Assembly (NCBI GenBank): GCA_016776725.1
Contig: JADHSV010000001.1
Span: 62,001 to 126,000 of the forward strand
Reading direction: 5' to 3'
Source: Rhodospirillales bacterium
GTDB lineage: Bacteria; Pseudomonadota; Alphaproteobacteria; Rhodospirillales; Shumkoniaceae
Length of the DNA stretch: 64,000 nt
A program made the translations under genes and the position numbers. Below, in pieces: positions 29,545 through 56,605 of the stretch (positions are counted from its first letter, which is position 1; every line of letters begins with the position of its first letter). Below the pieces are notes generated by a model. The model did not search any database and was not told where the DNA came from. It saw only the letters and a program-made list of their open reading frames with translations.

Positions 29545-29610
29545 GTTTTCGGTGACAGGTTTTCGGTGACAGTTTACTTTTTACGTTTTCGGTGACAGTT
29601 TACTTTTTAC
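29545..29610. repeat. iterated terminal repeats of the RAYT element
   Basis: GTTTTCGGTGACAG occurs three times in tandem, at 29545, 29559 and 29585. The second and third copies are identical 26-base units ending TTTACTTTTTAC. The inner copy overlaps the transposase stop codon. The inverted match to this end is at 30318-30336. Confidence 0.88.
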
Positions 29611-30286
29611 TGCGCGCTGATGGAAACTTCGTCCCCGTCTTCCGCCCACGTTTCTCCGGTCGGACGCGCCGTCCCAATTCGGCCTCGATCTCCTGCAACC
29701 ATTCGGCCTCGCCCAACGGACGGCCGATGGTCTCGGCGGCACGCAGGGACTTGCTCATTTCCTCTTCCTCGCCACTTTCCAGCAATGCCGTAAAGTCCGG
29801 AAACCGTTTGAGCACCGGCTCGGGCGAAACCAACCTATCGCCTTTTCCCGACAAATGGGCGTTGACGCTGGACCACCGCCAGTCGGCAGCCCGCTTGACG
29901 AGCCCCGCCCGCACCGGATTGAGCGAGACATAGCGCACCGCGCCCGCCAGATGGGCCTCGTCCATCACCACCGAACCGAAGCGCCCCTGCCACAGATGCC
30001 CCGTCCATTTATTCCGCGCATTAACATGCCGCGTGTAGCGCCGATGTGCGTCGGCCAGCGTCGCCCGCAGACCGTCGGCATGGGCGGGAACCATGATCAG
30101 ATGAACGTGATTGGGCATCAGGCAATAAGCCCAGACTTTCGTTCCCGCCTTCTTCGCCGCCGCGTCAAGCAACTCCATGTAATAAAGGTAGTCACCGTCC
30201 TCAAAAAACACGGTCTCGCGCCGATTGCCGCGCTGTGTAACGTGATGAGGAAAACCGGGAAGGACGATGCGGGCCAATCTGGACAT
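29600..30286 (-). CDS. REP-associated tyrosine transposase (Y1_Tnp)
   Basis: 228-residue single-strand DNA transposase of the IS200/IS605-related RAYT group. It carries the HUH metal site in CLMPNHVHLIM (about residues 56-66), the catalytic Tyr in VRYVSLNPVRAGLV (about 120-133), and the N-terminal PGFPHHVTQRGNR typical of RAYT proteins. The C-terminal SKK and stop codon are encoded by the element's own terminal repeat. The basic tail (RPEKRGRKTG) is common in the family. The frame is intact, so it may still be active and able to move the related hairpins at 48.7 and 56.5 kb. Confidence 0.92.
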   Translation of the reverse strand: MSRLARIVLPGFPHHVTQRGNRRETVFFEDGDYLYYMELLDAAAKKAGTKVWAYCLMPNHVHLIMVPAHADGLRATLADAHRRYTRHVNARNKWTGHLWQGRFGSVVMDEAHLAGAVRYVSLNPVRAGLVKRAADWRWSSVNAHLSGKGDRLVSPEPVLKRFPDFTALLESGEEEEMSKSLRAAETIGRPLGEAEWLQEIEAELGRRVRPEKRGRKTGTKFPSARSKK

Positions 30287-30317
30287 GTGGAACTATACCA
30301 TGCGCCGACGGAAAGTT

Positions 30318-30336
30318 AAAAAGTAAACTGTCACCG
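30318..30336. repeat. right inverted repeat of RAYT element
   Basis: AAAAAGTAAACTGTCACCG is the exact reverse complement of the left-end motif. Its last six bases supply the final Arg codon and TGA stop of the neighbouring 84-codon gene. Confidence 0.85.
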
Positions 30337-44049: not shown

Positions 44050-45131
44050 GATGCGCCGCCATCAGCCTCTTGCACGGGAATCACGCGCTGGCCGACACGA
44101 ACGAACTCCTGGCCGACGGTGATCAGGTTCAATTTTTCGGGAAGCCCGCGCAGCCATACGCCGTCGGGCGTATCGGCGATCAGTTCCGCCGGATAAAACT
44201 CGACCACGTTCTCATTTCCAACCGCCTTGACGCCGATGATGCCCTCGTCGGAAAGGGTCAGTACGGCCGGTGAAACACGGTGTGCAAACACGCGGCCCAA
44301 CGGCAGGCGAAGTTCGGTGGTCAGTCCTTCGGCGATATCGCCGTTCGGGTTGTCAACCTCGACCTCGACGCGGAAAGTTCGGGTCGCTTCGGCGCCGACC
44401 TTGGAAACATAGCTCACGGTGCCCCCGACCTCCTCGCCGGTAACCAGGCGAACGACGCCAAGCGCACCCACCGCAACGGCGGAAACGTTTCTTTCGGCAA
44501 CCGATCCGACCACCAGAATGGGATCAAGATCGACGATACGCGCGACCGTGCTGCCAACGTCCACGACATAGCCGATTTCGGCGGGCAGCCTATCCACCAC
44601 GCCGGCAAACGGCGCCCGGATGGTGCAGCGCTGGATGTCCAGCTTGATGGCCGCAAGGGCCGCCTTGGCGGATTCCAGATCGGCCTTGTTCTGCGCCAGC
44701 GTAACGACCGAGCGGAACTGCTTTTTGGACAGTTTCTGCGCGGCTTCATAAGCAATCTTGCGCTGCTCGACCAATGCCTGGGCCTGGGCAAGGCGGGCCT
44801 TGCGGTCATCCATGGCGATGCGCACCAGCACGTCGCCGCGCTTGACCCAATCCCCCTTTTTGACGAGACGCGAGACGACCCGACCCTTGGTTTCGGTCAT
44901 GACGTCAACGTTTCGCACGGCCTCGGTGCGGCCAAACAGGAAAATCTCGTTCTCCCGTTCCTGGGCGACCATGGCGCGCACGCGCACCTTGGGCAGAACC
45001 TCGTCGGCGGCAGCGGTCGCGACAATGGGGTCAACGCCTTCGGTCACGCTGGTCTGGCCGATCTGCCCAGACATGATCCAGCCGACGACCGAAATGGCGA
45101 CCAGGACGGCAAATAGATATGAACGTTTCAT
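44046..45131 (-). CDS. RND efflux periplasmic adaptor (membrane fusion protein)
   Basis: 361-residue adaptor that links the RND permease to an outer-membrane channel. An N-terminal membrane anchor (about 5-20) precedes a biotinyl-lipoyl half (VVSRLVKKGDWVKRGDVLVRI), a helical hairpin (about 115-155), the second lipoyl half (IRAPFAGVVDRLPAEIGYVVD) and beta-barrel domains. Length is usual. Start and stop overlap the neighbouring genes by 4 bp on both sides, so the three genes are co-translated. Confidence 0.92.
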   Translation of the reverse strand: MKRSYLFAVLVAISVVGWIMSGQIGQTSVTEGVDPIVATAAADEVLPKVRVRAMVAQERENEIFLFGRTEAVRNVDVMTETKGRVVSRLVKKGDWVKRGDVLVRIAMDDRKARLAQAQALVEQRKIAYEAAQKLSKKQFRSVVTLAQNKADLESAKAALAAIKLDIQRCTIRAPFAGVVDRLPAEIGYVVDVGSTVARIVDLDPILVVGSVAERNVSAVAVGALGVVRLVTGEEVGGTVSYVSKVGAEATRTFRVEVEVDNPNGDIAEGLTTELRLPLGRVFAHRVSPAVLTLSDEGIIGVKAVGNENVVEFYPAELIADTPDGVWLRGLPEKLNLITVGQEFVRVGQRVIPVQEADGGAS

Positions 45132-45691
45132 TGCGCTGCTCCCACGCTTTGCTCACGGGTCGGCGCAGCGTCGGCGTCGGCCGTATCCGCCAGAACGTGG
45201 CGGTTATTTTCCATGAATTCGACGATGGCCCTGTAAATGGACAGGCCGAAGTCGTGAACGAATAACTGGCCGGGGGCCAGCCCGTCCAAATCCGCGCAGC
45301 ACATCCCTTCGACGGTAGCGCGGTATTGCCCAAGGTAGTCCTCGAAAATCTCGTCGGCCCGCCCGGTTTCAAGAAAATGGGCGAAAAACATCATAAACAG
45401 ATACTCCGAGCGAATTCTGTCTTCGCTGGGGTTCTTGCCGAGCGTTTTGCGAAACGCGGCCAATCCCGCGTCGGTAATGCGGTAGATTTTCTTGCCGGGG
45501 CGTTTTTCCTGCGCCATTTCGGTGCACGTCACCTGTCCGGCTTCCGCCAGAGCTGTCAATGCCGGATAAATCGAGCCATACCCCGCCCGATAAAAATGGG
45601 CCAGCGGTCCTTCTTCAAGCTGCTTTTTTATCTCGTAACCGCTCGCGTCACCCTGGGTAAGGACGCCCAGACAAAGGGTTTTCGCATCCAT
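45128..45691 (-). CDS. PadR family transcriptional regulator
   Basis: 187-residue repressor with an N-terminal PadR winged helix (LGVLTQGDASGYEIKKQLEEG, GYGSIYPALTALAEAGQV, KKIYRITDAGLAAF, residues about 5-85) and a helical C-terminal domain for dimerisation. PadR proteins typically repress adjacent efflux genes until a ligand binds. The ATG at 45691 has GGAAGG 8 bases upstream; the longer reading to 45865 runs through an AT-rich operator-like region and is rejected. First gene of the RND operon. Confidence 0.88.
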   Translation of the reverse strand: MDAKTLCLGVLTQGDASGYEIKKQLEEGPLAHFYRAGYGSIYPALTALAEAGQVTCTEMAQEKRPGKKIYRITDAGLAAFRKTLGKNPSEDRIRSEYLFMMFFAHFLETGRADEIFEDYLGQYRATVEGMCCADLDGLAPGQLFVHDFGLSIYRAIVEFMENNRHVLADTADADAAPTREQSVGAAQ

Positions 45692-45739
45692 GCCGCCAAC
45701 CTTCCGCCCTGAAAAACAGAGCCGCTTTATATATATCGA

Positions 45740-45796
45740 TCCGATATATTTCAATATGGAATATATAGGTTCGGAATATATCAATTTGCAATATGC
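45740..45796. promoter_or_regulatory. candidate PadR operator region
   Basis: Two related motifs lie upstream of padR: TCCGATATATTTCAATATGG at 45740-45759 and a similar TCGGAATATATCAATTTG... at 45771-45796. Within them ATATATT (45744-45750) and AATATAT (45760-45766) form an inverted repeat with a 9-base spacer. Paired AT-rich dyads are typical of PadR autoregulatory sites. Confidence 0.5.
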
Positions 45797-45902
45797 CGAA
45801 GCGATATTAATTCGCGATTTTTCCGTATATCGCGGATCGCCCAAATCGTTTGTGAAGCAGTTCACATTTGATGGTAGGAATCATGGGAGAGGTGAATTAA
45901 GA

Positions 45903-45918
45903 GTCGAGAATTCTCGAC
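45903..45918. promoter_or_regulatory. 16-bp perfect palindrome
   Basis: GTCGAGAATTCTCGAC is a perfect palindrome between the PadR operon and the low-GC membrane-protein gene. It is downstream of the membrane-protein gene's stop (on the minus strand) and upstream of the padR promoter, so it could be an operator or a small hairpin. Purpose unknown. Confidence 0.35.
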
Positions 45919-45961
45919 ACGAATTAGCTTTCACGGCCAAACTTATTGTTGGGATCGCTAA

Positions 45962-46525
45962 TTAGCGCGGACCGAAGCCCTTATGCATGGCAACGAAGGT
46001 CGCTAACGACACGCAAAGTGCTAAAACCAAAATAACTGCACAATCATAGAATTTTTGATTGGGAATCTCTCTGTCCCTTGGAGGCTTAAGAAAATAGATC
46101 AAACCATACCCGGCGACCGTAAATGCCGCCACCGCACCAGTGTGCCAAATACCATCATCTAAATCGCGATAGAGGAAAGCCACGAGTGAAGGCATCAAGA
46201 TAAATAATGGCGTAAATATGCTCTGCTTTCCAGCGGTACCTCCGGTTCTATAGACAAGCAACGCCAAGCATAGAGAATCCGCATACCCCATTAAAAAGGC
46301 GAAAAAAACTTGCTTTTCTTCTGTTATTCTTTCGATTCCAAATACATCCATAGAGAGGAAAACTGAAATAAAAAATATTACACCAGTAACGGAAAATGCT
46401 AATATCGCCCATCTGTCAGGTATTTCTTGAACACTAACCAGCCAAACGGCATACCCGATCGCCGCTATACCAACTCCGAATAGTTGCGCAAGTATTACCG
46501 ACTGCCACCAAGGATCCCACGTCAT
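45962..46525 (-). CDS. integral membrane protein partnered with radical SAM gene
   Basis: 187-residue, strongly hydrophobic protein with about six predicted membrane segments; the most polar loop is around DRDLDDGIWH. No recognised family. AT-rich codon use matches the radical SAM gene 21 bp upstream, with which it forms an apparent two-gene operon. Conserved Arg/Glu/Asp residues face the loops (RITEEKQ, RDLDDG). Function unknown; an exporter or a membrane partner of the modified product is possible. Confidence 0.65.
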   Translation of the reverse strand: MTWDPWWQSVILAQLFGVGIAAIGYAVWLVSVQEIPDRWAILAFSVTGVIFFISVFLSMDVFGIERITEEKQVFFAFLMGYADSLCLALLVYRTGGTAGKQSIFTPLFILMPSLVAFLYRDLDDGIWHTGAVAAFTVAGYGLIYFLKPPRDREIPNQKFYDCAVILVLALCVSLATFVAMHKGFGPR

Positions 46526-46546
46526 ACCTTCCCCAATTTTTCCTCG

Positions 46547-47686
46547 TTATAGTTTTTCAAGAAAGCCCTGAGCGAAGATGCTCGTCGGGTTGTTTCTATA
46601 GTGCCGACTGCAGAAATAGGCCGCCGCCAAGCAATTGTCGTTGCACTTCCTCAAATTGTCTTCGATCGCGTTTTCCAGTTTTTCGAAGTATCGTTTATCC
46701 AATTCGAACACGGTTGTTCCCAACCCGTCAAGCAACACCGAGCATTGCATAATCGCGCCGTCACTGTCGATTGTGAGGTGGTGTTTCCCCGCGTCACACT
46801 TCCAAATTCCGGCTTCCCCGCGAACATGTCTTTTCATTGCATGATAGTACTCGTTGGGTTCAGTCGTAACAATTCCGTCCGCTTTCCTTTGCAGGATGGT
46901 GTTCGCCGCGTCATCAACCATCTTTACATCTTCCGGATCAGAAGAGAAAAAGACGTCGGTCTCCTCTTTCCAACCGGTGGGTTTTATCGGGGGGCGAAAG
47001 GCCAGGCGAATTGAAATGATAATATTATGCCGATCGGCAAAATCCATCACCGGCGTCAATTGGTCCAAGTTTCCCTTTGTGAGCACAAGATTTGTCTTAA
47101 TTCCGTACCTGTGCCGTTCCCGCCCCCTGAAGAGCGTTTCGAAAACCTCTTCGCGGTGGTAGAGGTCTTTCTTGCTGGCATCAAACCTCGCGACACTGTC
47201 AAGGGAAACATCGATTAACCCTATGCCGGCTTGGCCGAGATTTTCGACATAGGTTTCATCCTTTAATAAAAATGCATTGGTTGGGAGTTGGGTAAATATT
47301 TGTTTCGATTTACTCGCGTATTCAATAACTTTCAACAATTCTCGTTTGCGAAGAGTGGGTTCTCCTCCAAAAAAAGAAATCCATCTTGTCCCCATACTCG
47401 CAAGTTTATCGACTGTATATTTCAGTTCTGACAAATCCATCTCCTTTTTTGGAGTAGATAGTCCCATCTCCTTAAGTTTGTCTTCCGTAACATAGCAATA
47501 TGAGCAGGTGAGATTGCATTTCCTCGTCAAGAGGATGTAGGCCCAAACAGGAAAAGGGCGACCTGACAGCAAGGACTGCAAATATTCAAGATTGTGAATG
47601 GCGTTGCGGTGATGGTGCGGGCCGAAAAACCGGTGAAGGAGCTTCATTGGGTTGGCCCTCAATTCCCGAAGTTTGAATGCAGTCAC
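46547..47686 (-). CDS. radical SAM protein with C-terminal Cys-rich region
   Basis: 379-residue radical S-adenosylmethionine enzyme. The [4Fe-4S] motif is CNLTCSYC (CxxxCxxC, about residues 58-65), followed by FFGGEPTLRK (GGE motif) and SLDS. The C-terminal part has a further Cys set, WKCDAG, MQCSVL, KCNDNC and YFCSRH, arranged as in SPASM/twitch-type auxiliary cluster domains used in peptide modification. GTG 47686 has an AGGGGGG ribosome-binding site; the reading to 47731 is a weaker alternative. No precursor-peptide ORF was found beside it. It is lower in GC than its surroundings. Confidence 0.85.
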   Translation of the reverse strand: MTAFKLRELRANPMKLLHRFFGPHHHRNAIHNLEYLQSLLSGRPFPVWAYILLTRKCNLTCSYCYVTEDKLKEMGLSTPKKEMDLSELKYTVDKLASMGTRWISFFGGEPTLRKRELLKVIEYASKSKQIFTQLPTNAFLLKDETYVENLGQAGIGLIDVSLDSVARFDASKKDLYHREEVFETLFRGRERHRYGIKTNLVLTKGNLDQLTPVMDFADRHNIIISIRLAFRPPIKPTGWKEETDVFFSSDPEDVKMVDDAANTILQRKADGIVTTEPNEYYHAMKRHVRGEAGIWKCDAGKHHLTIDSDGAIMQCSVLLDGLGTTVFELDKRYFEKLENAIEDNLRKCNDNCLAAAYFCSRHYRNNPTSIFAQGFLEKL

Positions 47687-47973
47687 GCGATTCCCCCCTA
47701 GGTTCGGTCGATTGCTCAACAAATTAAACATCGGCTAATCGGTTCCCGAAATCGGTCGCGATGATAGCCCACGCGCCCTTTTCAGACAAAGAATAAATTA
47801 ATCTCAGGCACCTTGCCAGTTATCCGTAACAACACAACTATTATGTTAGAAACATGCCTTCTGGCAGTCAATATTCCGGTTCAATTCGGCGATCAGATTG
47901 AAAAACGAAATACACAGCGCCCAATTCAATAATTTGGTGTGAGCGGGTTCGGAATCTCGGGAGAAGTGGCTAT

Positions 47974-48669
47974 TCAGTCGCTGGCCTCGACAATGAGTTC
48001 AAGCTGCTCGGGATCCAGCAGCGTGACCGAGCCGCGCTTAAGGCGGAGCAACCCCTCGTCTTCCCAGGCCCGCAATTGCTTGTTCACGGCTTCGCGCGAG
48101 GTGCCCATCATGGCGCCCAGAACGCGCTGCGAGAGGGTGAGCGAAATGCGCACACCGCCGTCTTCCTCAATACCATGATCATTGGCCAGATCCAGCAGGC
48201 GTTTCGCCAGCCGCGTGCGCAAATCCAGAAAGCTGAAATCCTCCAACTGTTCGCTGGTTCGCCGCAACCGGTGGCACATGACCATCAACAACTTGATGCA
48301 AAGTTCGGGATTGCGCTCCAGGAAGGGCAGGAAATCGCGGCGCTCCAGAACCATCAGTTCGGTGTTTTCCATGGCCACGGCGTTGGCCGTGCGTTCGCCG
48401 CCGTCAATCAGGGCGATCTCGCCGAACACCTCACGCGGACCGATAACGTTCAGCACCACCTCGCGCCCTTCGGACGAATACGAACTGATGCGCACCCGGC
48501 CCGAAATGACGGCCATCATGCCGCTGGCCGGATCGCCCTTCATGAAGACCGGCTCTTTGGCCGCGAAGCGCCGCGTCATGGCGAATTTCTCCAGCCGCGC
48601 AAGATCCTCTTCCGGTAAATGCTTGAGAAGAAAATGTTCTGCAAGAATGTTTGGTATCTGGCTCCCCAC
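47974..48669 (-). CDS. Crp/Fnr family transcriptional regulator
   Basis: 231-residue cAMP-receptor-like regulator: cyclic-nucleotide-binding beta-barrel (about 20-130, with GPREVFGEIALIDGGERTANAVA), long helix, and C-terminal helix-turn-helix (LSQRVLGAMMGTSREAVNKQLRAW). No N-terminal Cys cluster, so it is not an oxygen-sensing Fnr; the Cys at about residue 120-125 does not match FNR ligands. The start is uncertain: GTG 48669 (AGGGG upstream) gives a normal N-terminus, and TTG 48714 would add 15 unlikely residues. The hairpin element at 48720-48780 lies directly upstream, in its promoter region. Confidence 0.85.
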   Translation of the reverse strand: MGSQIPNILAEHFLLKHLPEEDLARLEKFAMTRRFAAKEPVFMKGDPASGMMAVISGRVRISSYSSEGREVVLNVIGPREVFGEIALIDGGERTANAVAMENTELMVLERRDFLPFLERNPELCIKLLMVMCHRLRRTSEQLEDFSFLDLRTRLAKRLLDLANDHGIEEDGGVRISLTLSQRVLGAMMGTSREAVNKQLRAWEDEGLLRLKRGSVTLLDPEQLELIVEASD

Positions 48670-48719
48670 GATCCCCTGAGAAAAACTGATACCACATGGC
48701 GCCCCCCCGCCCAAGCATG

Positions 48720-48780
48720 CGTATTTGGTGACAGTATACTAAATTATTATAAATAATTTAGTATACTGTCACCAAATACG
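48720..48780. repeat. 61-bp perfect palindromic RAYT-related element
   Basis: Left arm 48720-48748 and right arm 48752-48780 are perfect inverted copies (29 bp each) around a 3-base centre. The arms contain GGTGACAGTATACT and its complement, resembling the transposon ends (GGTGACAGTTTACT) at 29.6 and 30.3 kb. There is no ORF. It resembles a miniature (non-autonomous) element moved by the RAYT transposase and lies between the Crp/Fnr gene and kduI. Confidence 0.8.
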
Positions 48781-48937: not shown

Positions 48938-49768
48938 ATGGACGTTCGCCAGGGCATTCACAGCGACCATGCCAAGACTTTAACCACCGAGGGAATTCGT
49001 AAAGAGTTCCTGATTGATGACATTTTCGTTCCCGGCAAAATCACCATGACCTACAGCCACATCGACCGCATCGTGGTCGGCGGGGCTTGCCCGGGAACGT
49101 CCGATATCGCGCTTGAAGCCAGCACGGCTTTCGGGGTCGATTTTTTCCTGCAACGCCGCGAGCTTGGTACCATCAACATCGGCGGCCCCGGCGTTGTCAC
49201 CATCGACGGCGAGGCGTTCGAGCTTGCCGCCGAGGATGGCCTTTACGTGCCCATGGGCACCAAGGAAATCCTGTTCCGCAGCAATGACGAAGCCAACCCG
49301 GCCAAGTTCTATTACACCAGCGCACCGGCCCACACGGCGTACAAGGCGGTCAAGATCAATATCGCCGACGCCGAGTCCGAAGCCCTGGGCGATCCCAAGA
49401 CCGCCAACGTGCGCACAATTTACAAGTATCTGCACCCGGCGGTGCTGCAAAGCTGCCAGCTGTGCATGGGCCTGACCAAGCTGAACGAAGGCAGCATGTG
49501 GAACACCATGCCGTGCCACACCCACGAGCGGCGCATGGAAGTCTATTTATACTTCCGCCTGCCCGAGGACGGCGTCGTCTTCCATATGATGGGCGAACCT
49601 GCCGAAACCCGCCACGTTGTCATGCGCAACGAACAGGCGGTCATCAGCCCCAGCTGGTCGATCCATTCGGGCGTCGGCTCCACCAACTACAACTTCATCT
49701 GGGCCATGTGCGGCGAAAACCAGGTCTTCGGCGACATGGACTTCATACCCATGACGGAACTGAAATAG
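48938..49768 (+). CDS. kduI: 5-keto-4-deoxyuronate isomerase
   Basis: 276-residue cupin that isomerises 5-keto-4-deoxyuronate to 3-deoxy-D-glycero-2,5-hexodiulosonate in pectin and alginate-type uronate breakdown. The metal-binding segment [15 protein letters not shown] (about residues 192-206) supplies His/His/Glu, and IHSGVG supplies the fourth ligand. Length matches. ATG 48938 has AAAGGA upstream. It is a single gene, followed by a terminator; the rest of the uronate pathway (kduD, kdgK) is not in this window. Confidence 0.93.
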
Positions 49769-56467: not shown

Positions 56468-56587
56468 AAAACCGGGGACAAAAACCGGGGACGACAAAAA
56501 CCGGGGACAGTATACCATTTCCTGTCACGGAAAATCGAGCAGCACGAAAAAAAGGAAACGCGAAAACGGTATACTGTCCCCGGTTTT
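56468..56587. repeat. RAYT-related miniature element with iterated end
   Basis: AAAACCGGGGAC occurs three times on the left (56468, 56481, 56497). The third copy extends to AAAACCGGGGACAGTATACC (56497-56516), and its perfect 20-bp inverted copy is at 56568-56587. No ORF lies between. The GGGACAGTATAC core matches the RAYT ends and the 48.7-kb hairpin, and the iterated left end parallels the RAYT element itself. Confidence 0.75.
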
Positions 56588-56605
56588 CGAATTCCTTTGG
56601 CTGGC

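Follow-up and report, generated by a model that had tools for sequence, protein, structure and literature searches.

A perfect 61-bp palindrome upstream of kduI in a Rhodospirillales bacterium is probably a miniature element made of two fused TIRYT-type terminal repeats

What is a perfect 61-bp palindrome doing in the gap between a Crp/Fnr-type regulator gene on the minus strand and kduI on the plus strand, 157 bp from the start of the latter? The palindrome lies in a 64,000-nucleotide stretch of DNA from a Rhodospirillales bacterium, which as a whole we call the window, and it is built exactly as the first-pass annotation had described it, namely of 29-base arms around a three-base centre. 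It ranks first among the inverted repeats of the window, and with mismatches allowed its arms reach 41 nt at 90%. Moreover, the predicted RNA fold of the 61-mer, at -40 kcal/mol with a z of -13.8, agrees with the strong hairpin that the annotation had expected in RNA. The features at the site are the following:

48720 to 48780, no strand: perfect palindrome, with perfectly complementary arms of 29 nt each at 48720-48748 and 48752-48780 and the loop ATA at 48749-48751
48723 to 48777, no strand: repeated unit of 55 bp, ATTTGGTGACAGTATACTAAATTATT followed by its reverse complement, matched by the covariance model over all 55 positions and delimited by comparison within and between copies
48727 to 48740, plus strand: core GGTGACAGTATACT in the left arm, from the core search
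48760 to 48773, minus strand: core GGTGACAGTATACT in the right arm, from the core search
47974 to 48669, minus strand: Crp/Fnr-type regulator gene with cNMP_binding and HTH_Crp_2 domains, a neighbour outside the element; its likely GTG start, near 48669, is deduced
48938 to 49768, plus strand: kduI, 5-dehydro-4-deoxy-D-glucuronate isomerase, a neighbour outside the element; ATG at 48938, NF002091 at 436 bits with a cut-off of 250

An intrinsic terminator was considered and rejected, as no G+C-rich stem with a U-tract was found between 48550 and 49000 (0 calls). Rfam returned 11 hits below threshold, all of them to microRNA hairpin models and far below their gathering scores, which we take to be chance matches to a long stem.

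The core is found, with up to 2 mismatches, at 7 places in the window, as against 0.05 expected from shuffles. Namely, these are the two arms of the palindrome, the ends of a transposase unit at 29565, 29591 and 30322, and two places in a dimer at 56503-56581. The corresponding features are these:

29600 to 30286, minus strand: Y1 transposase gene, IS200-like/TnpA-REP-like, 228 aa, related to the palindrome and not its exact partner; PF01797, NF047646 at 75 bits with a cut-off of 80
29565 to 29609, plus strand: left end GGTGACAGTTTACTTTTTA of the window transposase unit, present twice in tandem, from the core search
30317 to 30335, minus strand: inverted right end GGTGACAGTTTACTTTTTA of the same unit, from the core search
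56497 to 56587, no strand: second terminal-repeat dimer, of the GGGG subtype AAAACCGGGGACAGTATACC, with 24-nt arms and 43 nt between them, from the core and inverted-repeat searches

The left end of the transposase unit is in fact arranged in tandem over 29545-29610, as one 13-nt stub and two longer copies, and resembles the stubs beside elements in relatives. At 56470-56590, two truncated end copies stand in tandem to the left of the GGGG-subtype dimer, the ends of which are similar to those flanking another Y1 gene of the same assembly, on contig C36.

In our judgement, with a probability of about 0.8, the palindrome represents a miniature element that is non-autonomous and consists of two TIRYT-type terminal inverted repeats that are joined head to head by a 3-nt loop. 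It belongs to a dispersed family with the fixed end consensus ATTWSGTGACAGTATACTAAATTATT, the ends of Y1 genes are nearly identical to it, and sister elements are gained and lost at orthologous sites. The genome search for the core that the first-pass annotation had proposed did find further copies, contrary to what would have refuted its reading: in the own assembly, 2.48 Mb in size and 73.9% complete, the core with at most 2 mismatches occurs at 58 places, as against 7 for a reversed control, and the places, extracted with their flanks, are mostly pairs. A covariance model built from 18 members (17 own copies and one from genome G530) gave 46 matches in the assembly at E <= 0.01, both strands counted, and among the matches listed there are at least 18 places of the palindrome's type and at least 2 of the GGGG subtype. 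In other words, the family comprises about 20 scattered copies. The unit reads ATT(T/A)(G/C)GTGACAGTATACTAAATTATT, which after a short loop is followed by its reverse complement. The three outermost pairs of the window copy, CGT/ACG, fall outside the family sequence, since the flanks beyond the unit are unrelated between copies. Perfect palindromes are also a known type of artefact in assemblies, and the one studied here could in principle be a fold-back inverted duplication that arose in assembly or amplification; however, the same family stands at at least 18 of the places listed, with different flanks, as well as in other genomes, and we regard an artefact as extremely improbable.

Outside the own genome, the exact element is scarce. 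In particular, GTGACAGTATACTAAATTA occurs in 1 of 385 genomes of the class, namely the own one, and in a genome collection from which the own genome was possibly excluded it is found in 2 records, of which a Rhodospirillales bin contributes one perfect palindrome and Thiohalocapsa halophila a single match, on one strand only. A genome of the same order and another family, G137, holds 8 short palindromes with the core, and G530 holds one copy of the element, next to a coq7-like gene for which the own assembly gave no match, so that no empty site was obtained for it. Viral contigs gave 0 matches to the paired core, and no mention of six core letter strings was found in the open-licence literature. 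No clean empty site for GTGACAGTATACT elements emerged when G086 was compared with its congeners G075, G052 and G007, the region near the element being unaligned. As for the direct target-site duplications expected of a MITE of a DDE-type insertion sequence, a direct repeat of 3 or more bases flanks no more than 1 of 17 copies under six trims, and the apparent 2-base repeats, AT or TA, beside the copies are yielded by the palindrome itself.

Where would the transposase come from? The assembly holds three Y1_Tnp genes, on contigs C32 (that of the window), C36 and C45, with the ends GGTGACAGTTTACTTTTTA, GGGGACAGTATACC and GGGGACACCATACTTAATT, respectively; each of them, like one in G137, lies between inverted ends, and those of the C36 gene match the own GGGG palindromes. 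The first-pass annotation had assigned to the palindrome the core of the window's transposon, and the core is indeed present in both arms; the end of the window unit, however, is one mismatch away from it and diverges further in (GTTTACTTTTTA versus GTATACTAAATTATT), and so the unit is not the exact partner. None of the three Y1 genes in the 73.9%-complete assembly has GTGACAGTATACTAAATTA ends, and at this level of completeness such a gap does not decide membership in TIRYT. For the GTGACAGTATACT core, the best link to a transposase is provided by G137, where GTGACAGTATACTT-type ends and short core palindromes are found in one genome: a Y1 gene stands there between inverted TGACAGTATACTTA ends, and this is the one genome in which the exact palindrome end flanks a Y1 gene, in variant form. 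No Y1 gene match was found in G530. In an alignment of the four proteins the HVH/HIH and Y..LNPV motifs are conserved, as is a C-terminal stretch that all of them have. Y1_Tnp is the one Pfam domain in all four at E up to 0.1, and against NF047646, the model of REP-associated tyrosine transposases, they score 63-75 bits, below its cut-off of 80. The window protein matches one solved structure, PDB 4er8, at E 1.8e-6, and is thereby kin to the TnpA-REP of E. coli. Pfam gave no C-terminal HTH in the four proteins, nor, when their C-terminal parts were searched alone, any at E up to 10.

The two arms change together. In the 18-member alignment 96.4% of the cells pair, and two-sided changes affect 8 of the 26 pairs, amounting to 25 cells versus a shuffled mean of 7.7 (0 of 500 shuffles), while one-sided paired cells number only 2. 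Likewise, the arms of one and the same copy differ at 26 positions over 16 members, position -5 included, as compared with a permuted mean of 46.3 and a minimum of 30 in 20000 permutations. For example, the window copy and that at C7:47133 have the same loop and are otherwise identical over 45 nt apart from a mirrored stem change, ATAC/GTAT to ACAC/GTGT, and the copies at C7:58994 and C17:62328 also have a loop in common and a mirrored stem change; mismatches between the arms are present in copies on C3, C31, C50, C11 and C27. Beyond position -4, outside the unit, pairing is about as expected per position. The outer pairs match for 7-8 positions in at least 3 of 16 copies (the window copy, C32:32647 and C6:85696), with those on C48 and C27 looking alike, which is suggestive only of a palindromic flank around the repeated unit in some copies. 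Presumably the palindrome, when single-stranded, folds into a hairpin which a Y1/HUH transposase related to TnpA-REP would recognise and move, and one arm is copied onto the other by template switching or hairpin processing, which would keep the two identical and mirror any change on both arms. Compensatory changes and template switching are both already known, and which of them acts here we infer rather than observe. In two further copies (C48:15836 and C27:42479) both arms have GGTACAG instead of GTGACAG, a mirrored change at the level of a subfamily. A lone half-element, CCCTATTTAGTGACAGTATACTAAATAGGG at C50:9136-9149, looks like what would be left of a palindrome after a deletion between two CTAAAT repeats had removed its middle.

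Could the palindrome nevertheless serve the genes around it? The first-pass annotation had placed it at the promoter of the Crp/Fnr-type gene and upstream of kduI, and this position holds; however, it is atypical for the family, because, by a crude call of ORFs, the neighbouring genes converge at 11 of the 17 own copies, run in the same direction at 4 and diverge at only 2, one of them being the window copy. The base rate in the window is 15 convergent pairs among 59 pairs of adjacent genes, and the 11 of 17 against this rate, taken as 25%, corresponds to a binomial p of about 6e-4. An operator or a bidirectional promoter for the two divergent genes would fit the place of the window copy, as well as a symmetric promoter-like GTGACA-18-AATAAT (10/12) inside the palindrome, present on both strands (2 found, 0.4 expected). 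That said, we find such a role very unlikely, given the 2 divergent sites against 11 convergent ones, the variation of the flanking genes from copy to copy and the situation in two genomes of one genus in the same family as the window, G001 and G004. Namely, the alignment of their sequence upstream of kduI, with the adjoining upstream bases conserved, ends roughly where the palindrome has its right edge, and neither genome has the palindrome there. This comparison shows lineage-specific presence and not a clean empty site, because the gene to the left of the site differs from the window's left-hand neighbour. Between a PadR-type gene and kduI (45128-48780), G001 and G004 carry an aldolase-like gene instead of the radical SAM and Crp/Fnr genes of the window, and the segment that is thus replaced has the palindrome at its edge.

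The convergent bias itself could be read in another way, in that the structure might be selected at the 3' ends of genes, as a bidirectional terminator or a stabiliser of mRNA ends, a role that has been proposed for REPs, with the window copy at a promoter by accident. The 11 convergent copies, often with both stop codons only a few bases away, and the strongly negative predicted folding energy would be in line with this. However, the window copy has neither a U-tract nor a terminator call, and the two-sided paired changes come with almost no G-U intermediates, which DNA-level copying fits better than RNA-level selection. The bias would also be expected if selection removes insertions from promoters and genes, REP families have the same positional bias (PMC3733652), and the count depends on crude gene calls, one of the 11 copies (on C3) having its left gene 731 bp away. 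We therefore deem selection at 3' ends unlikely. Since most copies lie between convergent genes and two relatives lack the palindrome upstream of kduI, it is unlikely as well to serve kduI or the Crp/Fnr gene, and its effect here is probably not specific for either, beyond a strong hairpin that it would add to the transcripts that cross it. In our view, the window palindrome is mostly an ordinary dispersed element and not a regulatory device of kduI; it is the reuse of sites in the relatives that is worth pursuing.

In these relatives the covariance model gave 87 strand matches in G001 and 76 in G004. The elements of the two genomes are built in the same way, with spacers that are longer and ends such as ATTTCGGTGACAGTGCACT(A/T)AATTC and ATTT(C/T)GGGGACACCATACTTAATTC. 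We compared 23 of them, 12 of 20 fetched from G001 and 11 of 12 from G004, by querying the other genome with their joined flanks, and the outcomes by site cover 17 of the 23 (L161, L163, L171, L208, L209 and L210 are outside them). At 12 sites the element is in both genomes, altered in places:

L155, L158, L162, L166, L168, L170, L173, L202, L204, L205, L211 and L212: element at the same site in both

Only a half stands at the site corresponding to L206, and 4 of the 23 elements are missing in the other genome: L156 and L160 face rewritten intergenic DNA in G004 and not clean empty sites, L203 has left an end remnant in G001, and L207 is the only one of the four with a near-clean empty site. 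The claim of the first-pass annotation that the element is likely non-autonomous fares well on this gain and loss between congeners, together with the roughly 20 dispersed copies, the near-identical Y1 ends in the own and in another genome and the high stability of the predicted hairpin.

Shared elements can also differ in their interiors. The spacers can be compared at 8 shared sites and are homologous in 3 (L162, L168, L173). At 5 of the 8 they are unrelated or inverted: that of L170/L181 is inverted, with a reverse-complement identity of 0.72 where shuffles reach at most 0.58, and 4 pairs (L202, L204, L211, L212) align no better than shuffles. At L212/L220, where the oriented spacers reach 0.59 and the largest shuffle 0.62, the two genomes have different subfamilies at one site. 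The element L159, which occupies the site of L204 in G001, has a spacer 0.93-0.95 identical to those at the G001 sites L161 and L163. Differences between orthologous sites are mirrored at L155, L202 and L204 and one-sided at L166, L173 and L211. Truncated copies of their own ends flank many elements, on both sides at L159 and L169. Insertion into older copies, or overwriting of them, would explain both the replaced spacers and subfamilies and the flanking stubs, with independent insertion at hot spots as the alternative. We tentatively suggest, while holding it to be rather doubtful as yet, that existing copies act as docking sites: new ones would enter the centre of a palindrome or overwrite it and leave outer stubs, orthologous sites would come to differ in lineage, subfamily or orientation, and arm-to-arm copying would keep the arms perfect. 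If this were true, the palindromic flank beyond the unit in some copies, that of the window included, would be what an earlier occupant has left behind. With palindromes that are near-perfect and traceable, spacers that mark lineages and a pair of congeners in which some sites are shared and others are not, excision, insertion, overwriting and homogenisation of the arms can here be told apart.

How do these repeats compare with known systems? In a single event, template switching produces stems that are perfect, changes on both sides and an inverted spacer (PMC8794818, PMC8604942), and all three are seen here too; it is, however, a mutation process and not an element, and the likeness to these repeats is one of description. 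REPINs and their RAYTs (Bertels and Rainey 2011, PMC3116915) resemble the family more closely, with short inverted repeats, a variable spacer, a hairpin, extragenic position and a link to a TnpA-REP-like gene, and two-sided compensatory changes are reported to be common in them. Two inverted repeats with a variable spacer that form a predicted hairpin, as in a REPIN, are what we find. On the other hand, the GTAG/GTGG tag at the foot of REP hairpins occurs nowhere in the 18-member alignment, a half alone is not a REP-type hairpin, and there are about 20 copies, not hundreds. TnpA-REP subclass 2.1 (PMC6006769) has likewise Y1 proteins and no REP beside the gene, and differs in its C-terminal HTH-like domain, which Pfam did not detect here; according to its authors, it probably corresponds to TIRYT. 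In TIRYT/TIRtron, Y1 genes lie between terminal inverted repeats, many with GGGGWSAS, and the repeats are also dispersed without a gene, be it singly, as dimers or in groups (Di Nocera et al. 2013, PMC3733652); the motif is found in the majority of TIRYT repeats and not in all (PMC3733652, PMC6006769). Two own Y1 genes, with the ends GGGGACAC and GGGGACAG, and the own GGGG palindromes carry it, and the window palindrome has GGTGACAG. The family differs from TIRYT/TIRtron in that each of its dimers forms a fused 55-bp palindrome with almost no loop and its core is (G/C)GTGACAG, not GGGG; it is like it in the repeat ends of its Y1 genes and in the dimers dispersed without a gene. The relation to RAYT ends that the first-pass annotation had put forward stands as far as the near-identical Y1 gene ends go, and because the GTAG/GTGG tag is absent, TIRYT/TIRtron is a better name for it than RAYT/REP. 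The best published correspondence is with the terminal repeats of TIRYT/TIRtron.
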